Shown: piece after piece, positions 52,436 through 56,870 of the stretch | Numbering within the stretch: position 1 is the stretch's first letter | Layout of the letters: the number at the start of each line of letters is the position of its first letter | Assembly (NCBI RefSeq): GCF_002287505.1 | Contig: NZ_CP019688.1 | Coordinates: 1,848,674 to 1,912,673, forward strand | Reading direction: 5' to 3' | Origin: Corynebacterium glaucum | Lineage (GTDB): Bacteria; Actinomycetota; Actinomycetes; Mycobacteriales; Mycobacteriaceae | Length of the DNA stretch: 64,000 nucleotides | The notes under the pieces: model-generated | The model's database searches: none | Told to the model about the DNA's origin: nothing | Seen by the model: the letters and a program-made list of their open reading frames with translations, nothing else | Made by a program: the position numbers and the translations under genes

Positions 52436-52981
52436 CTAGCGGTCGGAATGCTTCCCACGAGCTTCTCCTACGCGACGCTGGCTCCAACCGACGTGCGATG
52501 GATTAAACCGAGAGTTGCTCACGGTTATGTGCTTAACCTTCATTGGAGCACATTTCCGATCTAGATTGTCCTTGATGCCAGCCAGGGCAAGCGGAAGCAT
52601 CCTGTTGTCGCCCCGCATCTCTATGGCGAGGGCTACCCGAATCTCTTCAGCGCTGACCGCGCGCCTGCAAAAATCTTTCTTCGGGTGATTCCCGAAATGA
52701 GCGACGAGCATAAGTCTCGCCATTGTGTGGAAGACTTTTAGCGCAAAGATGGTTGCTAGGTTTGGATCCGGGCGCTTGCCTGGGTAGGTATAGTCCTTCA
52801 CCTCGATTAGCCAAAGACGGTTTCCCTCGAAGGCAATAAGGTCGCAGTCTTTCGCGTTGAATGGGTCGTTCGTCAAGGGTTTAGCGGAGCGCCCAGAACT
52901 GTACCAAGTGTCGAAATCTTCTACTTCCCAGTCATCCGGAAATTCAAAAACGACATCCTCTACCACTATCGACCTACTCAT
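52436..52981 (-). CDS. PD-(D/E)XK-type nuclease-like protein
   Basis: 181 residues from ATG 52981 (ATG 52990 is an alternative). The nuclease signature is visible: Asp47 (KDCDLIAF) and Glu60-Val-Lys62 (RLWLIEVKDY), D-x12-E-x-K. The rest is mixed alpha/beta with a basic C-terminus. It overlaps the AAA ATPase gene by 8 bp, so the products probably act together. The target could be DNA, phage or self. The motif is convincing but short. Confidence 0.65.
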   Translation of the reverse strand: MSRSIVVEDVVFEFPDDWEVEDFDTWYSSGRSAKPLTNDPFNAKDCDLIAFEGNRLWLIEVKDYTYPGKRPDPNLATIFALKVFHTMARLMLVAHFGNHPKKDFCRRAVSAEEIRVALAIEMRGDNRMLPLALAGIKDNLDRKCAPMKVKHITVSNSRFNPSHVGWSQRRVGEARGKHSDR

Positions 52982-54056
52982 CGAATTCATGCTCCAGGTA
53001 CCTACTGGCTTGAGCAGCCTCTTCCTCTAGGGCGGTCAGAGTCGGCAAATCTGCTTGGGTTGGCCCCACAGTTCCAGACACACCGGTGAGCACGGATCCG
53101 TTATCACTGGGCTCATGTCGCTCCAAACCGATGTAGGCGGTTACGACCGGGTCCTCATCACTCAGGAGGCGTAATTCACGCAGTATGAAGACACTATGCG
53201 TTGCAATGAAGACTTGCGTGCCATGTTTGGCTAGAAGGTGAATTGTCTTAGCAACAGCTCGCTGCGTTCGTGGGTTCAAATTCGCTTCCGGCTCATCCCA
53301 GAACAAGTAACCCTTTTCGAGAAGAACACCCGACTGGACGAGTCGCAGCACCATTGCGAGCTTTCGATAGCCTTCCGAAACCAGGTGGGCCTCAATCTTG
53401 CCCGTTCCTCCAGTTGCTGTCTTGAGCTTGACGTAGAATCGCCCATTTTCCTCGACTACGCTGCCTTCTAGAATCTCGAGAATGGGTTCCAGAAGCTGGT
53501 TCGCTCGGTCTCCTCGGGGCCCAAGCAAAGGTGTCATGCCCAGTAGCACCGCGGTGTCCCGCCAAGTTTCGTCAAAAGAGACTTCGCGAGATTCGTAGAG
53601 GGAGATTAGGCCGGGATATATTGAGAGCAGCTCACGAGACGGTAGGAATACCGCAGTGTCTTCTAGCCTTCGATTGGGCACGCTCTCGACCTTCACCCTG
53701 TTGTCAGCTGACGAGGCAAAGTTGAATGCCAACTCAGATCCAACGCCTTTGAATTTGACCGACACGTCTGCCTTGCTACGGCCCCTAACACGGCTAGCAA
53801 GACGCCCCAGAGAGTCAGGTTTGAAAACGCCGATCAGCTTGGTTGCGACAGAAGTCGCTAGGTGAGTTTTGCTGGGCTCCTCCAAATTTCCGTGGTCTAC
53901 GGATTTTGTGGAGGCATACAACAGTTTCAATAGCTGAGTCTTACCGGTGCCGTTATCGCCGACTACGACGTTCAGCTGTGGGCTGAACTGGATATTCAAC
54001 TCACCAAAAGGACCAAACTGCTTGACCCGTAAAGTGTCGATGGGATACTCAGACAT
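52974..54056 (-). CDS. AAA/SMC-like ATPase, partner of the nuclease
   Basis: 360 residues. An N-terminal Walker A (VVGDNGTGKTQLLKLLY, 33-40) follows RVKQFGPFGELNIQF, as in AAA_15/21 and RecF-like ATPases. The ABC signature-like LVSEGYRKLAMVLRL, Walker B YLFWDEPEANLNPRT and H-loop VFIATHSVFIL are near the C-terminus. No coiled coil arm or TOPRIM domain is present, so this is not a classic OLD nuclease. ATPases of this type pair with nucleases in several anti-phage systems. Confidence 0.85.
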   Translation of the reverse strand: MSEYPIDTLRVKQFGPFGELNIQFSPQLNVVVGDNGTGKTQLLKLLYASTKSVDHGNLEEPSKTHLATSVATKLIGVFKPDSLGRLASRVRGRSKADVSVKFKGVGSELAFNFASSADNRVKVESVPNRRLEDTAVFLPSRELLSIYPGLISLYESREVSFDETWRDTAVLLGMTPLLGPRGDRANQLLEPILEILEGSVVEENGRFYVKLKTATGGTGKIEAHLVSEGYRKLAMVLRLVQSGVLLEKGYLFWDEPEANLNPRTQRAVAKTIHLLAKHGTQVFIATHSVFILRELRLLSDEDPVVTAYIGLERHEPSDNGSVLTGVSGTVGPTQADLPTLTALEEEAAQASRYLEHEFDE

Positions 54057-54099: not shown

Positions 54100-56031
54100 C
54101 TAACGCACGTCGGGCGGTGTAGAACGCAGCGCGCGCTGGTTCAGTTCGCGGCGGGCTTGTTCCAACGCGAGCAGATCGGAGAAGAGCGCGTTGTACGCCT
54201 GCTCGTCGTCGGACGGGCGCATGCGCTGCAGCCGCGCCTTCAGCTGGGCGATCTGGTCACCCACGCGGGTCTCCTGCAGCCGAGACAGCACAGAGTCCAC
54301 GTAGATCTCGATGTTGTCCGCGTGGATCGGCTCGACGGCGAGCTCGGAGACGAATTTGCGCCCAGCCAGGTCACGCATTTCACCGGCCACCCGGGCGGTG
54401 TAGTTCGGGCTCACCCCACCGTCGGCGCCAACGCCCTGCTGCGCCCCGCCCGCATCAGCCATCGCCTGGCGCACCTGCCGGTAGGCGTCGTTCGTGAACG
54501 CGTCTGGGTTGATTCCGTCGAAGTAGGTCCCAGCAATTCCCGGGTACTGCAGTGCAACCTTCAGCGCTTCGCGTTGCGGCCACAGAACGGGATCGCGCGG
54601 GTTCGGAGCCGCCAGGGCGGGGGCAGCGGAAGATGCAGCGGTTGGGGTTGGGCTGGGCGTTTGACGGGGCGTCGATAAGCGAGGGCCCTTCTTTGGCTTC
54701 TTCGATTCCTCCCTGACCTGCTGAACCACCTCATCCGGGTTGGGCCAACCCACCCAACCCGCGAGCCGGCGCGCGTACTCGGTGCGCAGGACCGGATCGT
54801 TGATCTCAGCGACAATCGGCACAGTGCGGCGCAGCGCCTGCAGCCGACCCTCGGCAGAATCAAGGGAGAAGTTGGTCAAGGTCGACTCGAGCACAAACTC
54901 GACCATGGGGATTCGCTTTGCGACGAGCTCTCGAACCGCAGAATCTCCCTTGGCCAGGCGCAGATCGCAGGGGTCCATCCCCTCGGGCGCGATCGCCACA
55001 AAGCTCTGACCAGTGAATTCCTGATCACCTTCGAACGCGCGCATCGCAGCCTTCTGGCCGGCCTCGTCGCCGTCGAAGGTGTAGATGAGCTCGCCGCGGA
55101 AGTAGTTGTCATCCAACATGAGGCGGCGGATGGTTTGCAGGTGGTCGTTGCCAAAGGCGGTGCCACATGAGGCGACCGCGGTTTTCACGCCGGCGGCGTG
55201 CATGGCCATGACGTCGGTGTAGCCCTCGACGATGACGGCCTGGTGGCCCTCAGCGATGTGCTTCTTCGCGAGATCGAGTCCGAAGAGCACCTTGGACTTG
55301 TGATATAGCAGCGTGTCCTGGGTGTTCATGTATTTGCCCATTGGGTCATCGTCGAAGAGCTTGCGGGCGCCGAAGCCGATGACGTTGCCGGCCGCGTCCT
55401 TGATGGGCCAGATGAGGCGGCGACGGAACTTGTCGATCGGCCCGCGCTTGCCCATGCTGCTTAAGCCTGCTTGCTGGAGTTCCTCGGCCTGGAACCCCTT
55501 GCGCAGGAGGTGCTTGGTCAGGGTGTCCCAGCCGTCCGGGGCGTAGCCGCACTCGAAGTGGTAGATGTGGTCGCGGCTGAATCCCCGGTCCAGGAGGAAC
55601 TGGCGCGCGGTCTGGGCTTCCTTGGTTTCCAGCTGCTCGCGGTAGAACGCGTGCGCGGCCTGGTTCGCGGCAAGCAGGCGCTGGCGGGTGCCCGGTTTGA
55701 CGTCGCGCGCGCCCGTGGTACCACCCTGGTAGTTGATGCGGTAGCCGATGTGGTCCGCCACCGCCTCCACTGCCTCCGGGAAGGTCAGCTGCTCCATCTC
55801 CATGAGGAAGGTGAAGACGTCGCCGCCCTTGCCGGTGGAGAAACAGTGGAAGTAGCCGCGTGCGGGGCGCACGTGGAATGACGGGGTCTTTTCGTCCTTG
55901 AACGGGGACAGACCCTTCATAGAATCGTGGCCTGCGGGTTTGAGCTGCACGTACTCGCCGACGATCTCCTCGATCGGCGCGCGCTCGCGGATAGCTTCGA
56001 TATCACTATCCGGTATTCTCCCCTTGGCCAT
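54100..56031 (-). CDS. dnaG: DNA primase
   Basis: 643 residues from ATG 56031 (MSRM start at 56040 possible; no Shine-Dalgarno sequence). N-terminal zinc-finger region, TOPRIM catalytic domain (AVIVEGYTDVMAMHAAG, YTFDGDEAGQKAAMRAF), then a Pro/Ala linker near 455-485 that carries one copy of the dispersed motif, and a helicase-binding C-terminus. The zinc ligands are mostly replaced: Ser42, Lys45, Cys63, Thr66 stand where Cys, His, Cys, Cys are normal. It makes RNA primers for replication. Confidence 0.95.
   Translation of the reverse strand: MAKGRIPDSDIEAIRERAPIEEIVGEYVQLKPAGHDSMKGLSPFKDEKTPSFHVRPARGYFHCFSTGKGGDVFTFLMEMEQLTFPEAVEAVADHIGYRINYQGGTTGARDVKPGTRQRLLAANQAAHAFYREQLETKEAQTARQFLLDRGFSRDHIYHFECGYAPDGWDTLTKHLLRKGFQAEELQQAGLSSMGKRGPIDKFRRRLIWPIKDAAGNVIGFGARKLFDDDPMGKYMNTQDTLLYHKSKVLFGLDLAKKHIAEGHQAVIVEGYTDVMAMHAAGVKTAVASCGTAFGNDHLQTIRRLMLDDNYFRGELIYTFDGDEAGQKAAMRAFEGDQEFTGQSFVAIAPEGMDPCDLRLAKGDSAVRELVAKRIPMVEFVLESTLTNFSLDSAEGRLQALRRTVPIVAEINDPVLRTEYARRLAGWVGWPNPDEVVQQVREESKKPKKGPRLSTPRQTPSPTPTAASSAAPALAAPNPRDPVLWPQREALKVALQYPGIAGTYFDGINPDAFTNDAYRQVRQAMADAGGAQQGVGADGGVSPNYTARVAGEMRDLAGRKFVSELAVEPIHADNIEIYVDSVLSRLQETRVGDQIAQLKARLQRMRPSDDEQAYNALFSDLLALEQARRELNQRALRSTPPDVR
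54671..54680 (+). repeat. Dispersed motif core GTCGATAAGC, copy 6
   Basis: In the dnaG linker; here the sense frame reads RLSTPR, a different frame from the other coding copies. GGGGC before, GA after. Confidence 0.85.
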
Positions 56032-56059: not shown

Positions 56060-56614
56060 ATGCTCGATGTGAAGTTGCGCCTTAGAGGGTTCGCCCTGTG
56101 CCTGCCCATCGGCGGGCTCGTCTGCGGACTGCTCAGTGGGTGCGCTGCGGCGCCGGAGGCTGGGCCGGGGCCCAAGTCGGAACCGGAGACGACTTCAGTT
56201 ACGTCGGTATCGTCTGAGACTTCAGCTTCGACAGCGAAGGCTCCTGCGACGCAAGCGTCGGGGACTGGGCCTTCGGGACTCGAATTGTGCGAGGAGCTCC
56301 CCGACGAGGTGTGGGACACCGTTGCTCTTGTCGACCAAGGCGGACCATTCCCCTACCCGGACAACGATGATTCGCGCTTCGGCAACTACGAGCGAGTGCT
56401 GCCCGATGAGAAGCTGGGCTACTACCGCGAGTACACGGTGGAAACTCCGGGCGTGCGCCACCGCGGCGCGCGGCGAGTCGTCACCGGCGGCGGTGCGGAC
56501 GGAGATGTGGACTCGTGGTTCTACACCGCAGATCATTACGACTCGTTCTGCGAGATCAGCGAATCGCAGTTAGATGAGAAGCTCGATGAGGCGAAGGAGG
56601 CGGCAGGTGTATAG
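56060..56614 (+). CDS. Surface-anchored guanyl-specific ribonuclease, RNase Sa family
   Basis: 184 residues from ATG 56060. Signal peptide with lipobox LLSGC (Cys28), then a Ser/Thr/Glu-rich spacer (about 29-72) and a microbial-RNase domain (about 73-165). All key residues align with RNase Sa: Glu111 (E41), catalytic Glu124 (E54), Arg135 (R65), Arg139 (R69), His159 (H85), and the disulfide Cys77-Cys164 (C7-C96). GGPFPY and TPG..RRGARR-type segments are conserved. It cleaves RNA after guanine. It is divergent from dnaG and overlaps the barstar gene by 8 bp. Confidence 0.9.
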   Translation: MLDVKLRLRGFALCLPIGGLVCGLLSGCAAAPEAGPGPKSEPETTSVTSVSSETSASTAKAPATQASGTGPSGLELCEELPDEVWDTVALVDQGGPFPYPDNDDSRFGNYERVLPDEKLGYYREYTVETPGVRHRGARRVVTGGGADGDVDSWFYTADHYDSFCEISESQLDEKLDEAKEAAGV

Positions 56615-56870
56615 GACATCGCATGGACGCGGACGCAACCCGGTCTTGCTCACCGCCCCCGTAGAGAGCGTGGCCGACCTCGCGACGGGCATCTCGTACG
56701 CGGTGTTCGGCCCCGAGCGTCCTGCCCCACACAACTTGGACGGTCTCGCTGACCTGCTCCGCGAGGCAAGGGTGACTCGAGTCATCGCCTCCGACTGGCA
56801 GCTGCCCGCCGCCGACACTATGCGGGTACTCCAGGTCTTCAGCGACAACGACGTCGCACTTGTGCGCTAG
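56607..56870 (+). CDS. Barstar-family ribonuclease inhibitor
   Basis: 87 residues from GTG 56607, with AAGGAGG 7 bp upstream inside the RNase gene. Core features FGPERPAPHNLDGLADLLRE and ASDWQLPAADTMRVLQVF match the barstar fold (inhibitory helix with NLDGLxD). No signal peptide, so it acts in the cytoplasm, protecting against any RNase that fails to leave the cell. The coupled order RNase then inhibitor fits an immunity gene. Confidence 0.82.
   Translation: MYRTSHGRGRNPVLLTAPVESVADLATGISYAVFGPERPAPHNLDGLADLLREARVTRVIASDWQLPAADTMRVLQVFSDNDVALVR

Follow-up and report, generated by a model that had tools for sequence, protein, structure and literature searches.

A ribonuclease gene whose product is predicted to be anchored at the cell surface, with a barstar-like gene that starts inside it, raises the question of what such a pair does for a corynebacterium: is it a contact-dependent weapon with its immunity protein, or does the enzyme serve the surface of the cell that makes it? 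The locus lies in the window, by which we mean the whole stretch of 64,000 nucleotides of Corynebacterium glaucum DNA that was analysed; the genome is 2.52 Mb in size and consists of a single contig.

The putatively anchored RNase and its locus

The features of the locus, in window coordinates, are:

54100-56031, minus strand: dnaG, the divergent neighbour, outside the RNase/barstar system
56060-56614, plus strand: RNase gene, an open reading frame of 184 aa
56060-56140, plus strand: putative lipoprotein signal peptide of the RNase, residues 1-27, with a basic n-region (KLRLR), a hydrophobic stretch and the lipobox, read from the translation
56132-56143, plus strand: lipobox LSGC (L25-S26-G27-C28), read from the sequence, with lipidation predicted at Cys28
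56144-56278, plus strand: Ser/Thr/Ala/Pro-rich linker, residues 29-73 (45 residues), read from the sequence
56279-56614, plus strand: RNase Sa-type catalytic domain including the stop codon, from PF00545, RNase Sa in the PDB, the AF2 model, Foldseek and alignments
56595-56600, plus strand: putative ribosome-binding site AGGAGG of the barstar-like gene, 6 nt before its GTG, from the sequence and a survey of starts
56607-56870, plus strand: barstar-like gene, an open reading frame of 87 aa with a GTG start

The two overlapping reading frames of the original prediction are both present; the GTG at 56607 lies inside the RNase gene, giving an overlap of 8 nt at the RNase stop. Alignments indicate that the RNase has a C-terminal extension of about 13 residues compared with most relatives (56573-56614), which contains the ribosome-binding site of the second gene. 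The start of dnaG at 56031 is separated from the RNase start by 28 nt, and downstream of the pair follow genes for CstA, an ArsA-type ATPase, an HD-domain protein, which we take to be dgt (our own naming), and a TPM protein. Just downstream of dnaG, in a lower-GC stretch (52436-54056, minus strand), an AAA ATPase gene matches the HEC-02B model (E 8.5e-107) and a small gene overlapping it matches HEC-02A (E 3.9e-14); these two are a candidate anti-phage defence pair. An anti-phage function was also considered for the RNase and barstar themselves and set aside, as neither has a PADLOC match.

The window RNase matches PF00545 with an E-value of 1e-21 (77.7 bits, cut-off 24) and RNase Sa in the PDB with a phmmer E-value of 1.8e-20. 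Its AF2 model (pLDDT 93.2) retrieves RNase Sa, Sa2 and Sa3 in Foldseek, with RNase Sa as the best match (E 3.1e-9), so that family, structure database and fold searches agree on an RNase Sa homologue. All catalytic residues are present in the alignments, namely E124, R135, R139 and H159, which we take to correspond to E54, R65, R69 and H85 of RNase Sa. Judging from this active site, the enzyme would cut RNA after guanine. The prediction of the single disulfide of RNase Sa holds only approximately: a conserved cysteine pair, C77/C164, is there, but C164 aligns with S90 of RNase Sa in the phmmer alignment and not with the second cysteine of that enzyme, presumably the C-terminal Cys96. The window RNase shares with the Streptomyces enzymes RNase Sa, Sa2 and Sa3 (PF00545) the fold, the catalytic Glu/Arg/Arg/His and the guanine-contact Glu, and it differs from RNase Sa in a second cysteine six positions earlier and a longer C-terminus. 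A further difference from all three is the tether, a lipobox or transmembrane segment plus linker.

In the window protein, both the lipobox, preceded by a basic n-region and a hydrophobic stretch (KLRLR...LLSGC), and the spacer can be read from the translation as predicted. A lipid anchor is, however, not the general form. We classed the anchors of 195 Corynebacterium RNase loci by script from their N-termini, with two corrections by hand (L169 to transmembrane, L173 to lipobox), and found 173 with a transmembrane segment, 19 with a lipobox and three that could not be judged (L217, L284 and L289). Of the 19 lipobox loci, among which the window's species was entered twice (L001 and L205), 18 have a barstar. 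According to the positive-inside rule, basic residues ahead of a hydrophobic stretch place what follows outside the cell, so the RNase would face outwards. Ser, Ala, Gly, Thr and Pro are abundant in the linkers of the first 149 genus loci. Trees of the RNase, built on 108 columns and poorly resolved, place the lipobox forms together in the window's clade, where they are intermixed with transmembrane forms. The tree on 149 rows, in which L173 was mislabelled as transmembrane and L217 counted as such, gave 5 lipobox and 8 barstar changes, and the weakly resolved tree on 193 rows gave 3 and 10, respectively. Outside the genus, lipobox RNases were recognised by eye in Mycolicibacterium wolinskyi, Mycobacterium aurum and Arsenicicoccus.

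It is conceivable that the enzyme is in practice secreted, the anchor being cleaved or shed so that the RNase acts in the medium, as RNase Sa, binase and barnase do. The proteobacterial relatives, whose N-termini we judged by eye, mostly carry ordinary signal peptides and resemble secreted forms with the same gene order, and by our reading some of the transmembrane segments contain a possible signal-peptidase site, so that some of these anchors may be cleaved. Against this stands the presence of a hydrophobic anchor or lipobox in 192 of the 195 loci, with about three changes between the two types on the weakly resolved tree, and we consider it unlikely that release is the rule.

A diverged barstar-like partner

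The product of the second gene has no match to PF01337, and neither Pfam nor NCBIfam names it. That a barstar gene follows the RNase, as originally proposed, is nevertheless borne out by profile comparison, on which we base a relation to barstars without claiming membership of PF01337. A profile of 99 Corynebacterium sequences matched one of 52 RNase-adjoining barstars of other bacteria, picked by pattern, with an hhalign E-value of 2.7e-6; an NLD-type motif was among the criteria by which the sequences had been picked, which favours such a match. The Corynebacterium-only profile also matched three mycobacterial barstars (E 1.4e-10). When a profile of 17 rows, A2, composed of 14 Corynebacterium and these three mycobacterial sequences, was compared with the PDB, the top 14 rows were all barstars (best E 9.5e-5), and with the 50-row, Corynebacterium-only profile A4, which lacks the mycobacterial bridge, barstars still ranked first, but only at an E-value of 0.12. 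Ten of the 17 A2 members match PF01337 at E ≤1, hence at least seven of the 14 Corynebacterium members. The AF2 model of the window protein (pLDDT 88.9) gave no Foldseek match at E ≤0.001 when searched alone. In VIA-align, rows 1-4 were barstars with Z-scores of 7.3 to 6.5, the best spanning 76 residues, and rows 6-8 were also barstars, down to a Z-score of 5.4; an unrelated TnsC scored 6.3, and values below 8 may mean no more than a common arrangement, so that the structural alignment agrees with a barstar fold, but not decisively. The hhalign, PDB profile, PF01337 and VIA-align comparisons are not independent of each other.

Within the motif NLDGLAD, the window protein carries D45 and D49, which we take to be the equivalents of barstar D35 and D39. 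This DxxxD pair is invariant in all 17 rows of A2 and at least 90% conserved over the 50 rows of A4. Zhang et al. (2012, PMC3482391) give DxxxD as the motif of Imm-Barstar. The corynebacterial protein resembles the barstars of B. amyloliquefaciens and enterobacteria (PF01337) in its profile relation, its model fold, the DxxxD pair and the position of its gene directly behind the RNase. It differs from classical barstars with the motif NLDALWD in that the YYGE before the motif and the W inside it are replaced in the alignment, and the window protein has become too diverged for Pfam to recognise. M. wolinskyi (L052) and M. aurum (L063) likewise have an RNase with a lipobox, as judged by eye, and a barstar, of which the matched part starts 23 nt past the RNase stop, but their barstars retain the classical motif YFGxNLDALADCL, unlike the corynebacterial ones. 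The existence of this diverged branch shows that Pfam undercounts barstars in Corynebacterium.

Distribution, pairing and a clade with an altered active site

A search of related Corynebacterium genomes for the pair found PF00545 in 194 of 201 genomes, as a single match in 191 of the 194, and the barstar in 104 of the 201; in the sample of the order, 45 of 120 other genomes have a PF00545 match. C. glutamicum, used as a control, has a PF00545 gene as well. Given its near-universal presence in the genus, the RNase looks like a housekeeping enzyme of the surface rather than a specialised weapon. The 195 loci that we read, from 194 genomes, comprise the 149 best-scoring matches and 46 others. The RNase gene is divergent to dnaG at 144 of them (117/149 and 27/46), and 124 have dgt in convergent orientation behind the RNase in the flanking sequence retrieved. 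The barstar-like gene lies directly behind the RNase at 104 loci (100/149 and 4/46), leaving 91 without an adjoining barstar; among the first 149 loci, the RNase stop and dgt are a median of 276 nt apart where the barstar is present and 22 nt where it is absent. At 52 of 98 loci with script-assigned starts, again among the first 149, the barstar start overlaps the RNase stop. One RNase, L265, is split over two frames with an open barstar behind it; its genome (G078) is only 77% complete, so the frame break may be a sequencing error.

All 104 genomes with a barstar also have the RNase. Conversely, none of the seven genomes without RNase (G002, G031, G058, G110, G131, G162 and G171, of which G131 is only 82% and G058 91% complete) holds a barstar, either by our models or by PF01337, in a search in which up to 28 first-look candidates per genome were scored; the hypergeometric probability is about 0.005 by our own arithmetic, which ignores relatedness. 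The A2 profile missed two of ten positive controls (G124 and G189), both of which A4 found. Relocation of the barstar was considered for genomes in which it is missing behind the RNase, but in the genomes of 49 barstar-less loci searched with two barstar models none was found elsewhere, with two exceptions. G059 has two RNase loci 29 kb apart (L171 and L182), one without and one with a barstar, and G023 has a classical PF01337 barstar distant from its barstar-less RNase (L242). Weak matches with E-values of 0.005-0.08 in G040, G121, G116, G050 and G166 were left uncounted.

Selection on both genes is purifying: for 25 independent pairs of close relatives, taken from the first 99 barstars, dN/dS had a median of 0.135 for the barstar (23 usable pairs) and 0.089 for the RNase; values for deep pairs were saturated and left unused. 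Purifying selection and presence at 104 of 195 loci argue that the barstar is not a chance reading frame. It changes faster than its partner: over 4851 pairs, its median pairwise identity is 36%, compared with 65% in the RNase domain.

Residues of the full RNase domain were counted over 193 loci, excluding L265 with its broken frame and L289 at a contig end. Invariant in all 193, in RNase Sa numbering, are both cysteines, R65, R69, H85 and N39. The guanine-contact Glu is present in 187, with Gln in five and Ala in one, and the catalytic Glu54 position is occupied by Glu in 181 loci and by Ser in the other 12. Active-site residues thus vary little, but an invariant active site, which held for the first 149 loci, had to be given up for the genus, as the 12 Ser loci are among the other 46 genomes; the first lot was misleading because it consisted of the best-scoring matches. 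The Ser loci belong to 12 species (L247, L249, L254, L259, L264, L269, L270, L280, L281, L285, L286 and L288), which form one side of a single branch with a support of 92, and the enzyme is therefore not intact throughout the genus. All 12 have a transmembrane anchor and none has a barstar, and they retain the remaining active-site residues and both cysteines. Judging from work on RNase Sa, loss of the general base would be expected to cripple catalysis. The RNase of this clade is thus probably impaired, yet it has been retained, and the protein may have taken on an altered role there, possibly that of an RNA-binding pseudo-RNase on the surface. A plain scavenging role would leave its retention unexplained. 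As a general reason for a missing barstar, a dead RNase fails, since the Glu is retained at the remaining 79 loci without a barstar; in many species the enzyme is probably harmless inside the cell because it is exported before it folds or because it depends on the disulfide.

These data also bear on whether the barstar-like protein inhibits the paired RNase at all, or has another task and owes its position to an ancestral pairing. Its strong divergence, the lack of a Pfam match in the window and the 91 loci at which the RNase stands alone could be taken in this sense. The nearly invariant DxxxD pair, the restriction of the barstar to genomes that have the RNase and the frequent overlap of the two genes speak for an inhibitor, as does its absence from each of the 12 species with Ser in place of the catalytic Glu, although these form one clade and so count as one event. 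We regard a separate task as quite unlikely.

A probable envelope RNase rather than a contact-dependent toxin

The two-gene arrangement as such is ordinary. Among the best 80 of 584 relatives of the window RNase, 64 loci are from outside Corynebacterium, and 55 of these have a barstar-patterned reading frame at or just after the RNase; the closest named relatives within the same 80 are from C. stercoris, Corynebacterium sp. Marseille-P4321 and C. haemomassiliense. At four actinobacterial loci (L047, L057, L059 and L089), weak matches to the corynebacterial barstar profile (E 0.001-0.008) lie on the same strand, some 740-900 nt ahead of the end of the RNase, hinting at an inhibitor that precedes the RNase in some Actinobacteria. 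According to Zhang et al. (2012, PMC3482391), simple barnase-barstar pairs in the order toxin then immunity are widely distributed, possibly "without notable polymorphism". The corynebacterial pair resembles these in comprising two genes for an exported RNase and an inhibitor, and differs in that the RNase is near-core in the genus, mostly adjoins dnaG and is tethered, and that the inhibitor is missing at about half of the loci. Our search of the openly accessible literature found no account of this pair in corynebacteria, nor of a microbial RNase that is tethered. Simple RNase/barstar pairs are thus already known; what is new is the consistent tethering and a branch of barstars invisible to Pfam.

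A contact-dependent role, one of the two originally suggested, would have the tethered RNase delivered into neighbouring cells, or act as a short-range antibacterial toxin, with the barstar shielding siblings. RNase/barstar pairs do serve as toxin and immunity modules in polymorphic toxins, as PMC3482391 describes, and the gene order and the anchored, exposed RNase would suit such a system. Its protein architecture and distribution do not: the 184-aa RNase has only PF00545 above the Pfam cut-off, with DUF3558 far below it and no delivery or repeat domain, and a near-core gene (194/201 genomes), mostly beside dnaG (144/195 loci) and little varied in its active site, with no barstar in the seven RNase-less genomes and none at 91 of 195 loci, argues against a contact-dependent toxin/immunity system and for an envelope RNase. 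We therefore judge the toxin to be very unlikely and do not uphold this part of the original prediction.

Instead, we favour, with reasonable confidence, an envelope RNase that is conserved in the genus and coupled to an inhibitor acting as a safeguard in the cytosol; the computed basis of this reading is the RNase identity, the relation of the partner to barstars, the anchors, the conservation, the gene overlap and the co-occurrence, from which we infer activity, lipidation, disulfide formation, RNase-barstar binding and role. In such a model, the RNase would be exported by the Sec pathway, as its N-terminus suggests, and held on a flexible linker at the outer face of the plasma membrane, by a lipid anchor in C. 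glaucum and by a transmembrane segment in most of the genus. Outside the cell, the putative disulfide would lock the enzyme, and the exposed domain would then cut RNA after guanine. The barstar-like protein, made from the overlapping start, would bind whatever RNase has folded ahead of its export, thereby protecting cytosolic RNA, a function to which the pairing, the overlap and the relation to barstars all point. Inhibition would not be obligatory, given the 91 loci without a barstar.

The everyday role of the enzyme is most likely to break down RNA within the cell wall, as scavenging or clearance, rather than contact-dependent killing, since a conserved, non-polymorphic enzyme fits the former better; a surface-nutritional role, the other original suggestion, is possible. 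More tentatively, one might speculate that the genus keeps an immobilised RNase at its outer face in which the type of anchor is swapped but the tethering is kept, as a fixed barrier that destroys RNA before entry, or in the Ser clade only binds it, and that the barstar, optional and fast-evolving, is a safeguard of the cytosol required only where the enzyme has its full activity.

Although RNase/barstar pairs are textbook material, why bacteria keep the secreted ones has been little tested. With natural variants that possess the inhibitor, lack it or carry an altered active site, the need for the barstar and the purpose of an extracytoplasmic RNase become directly testable in a laboratory strain of C. 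glutamicum.
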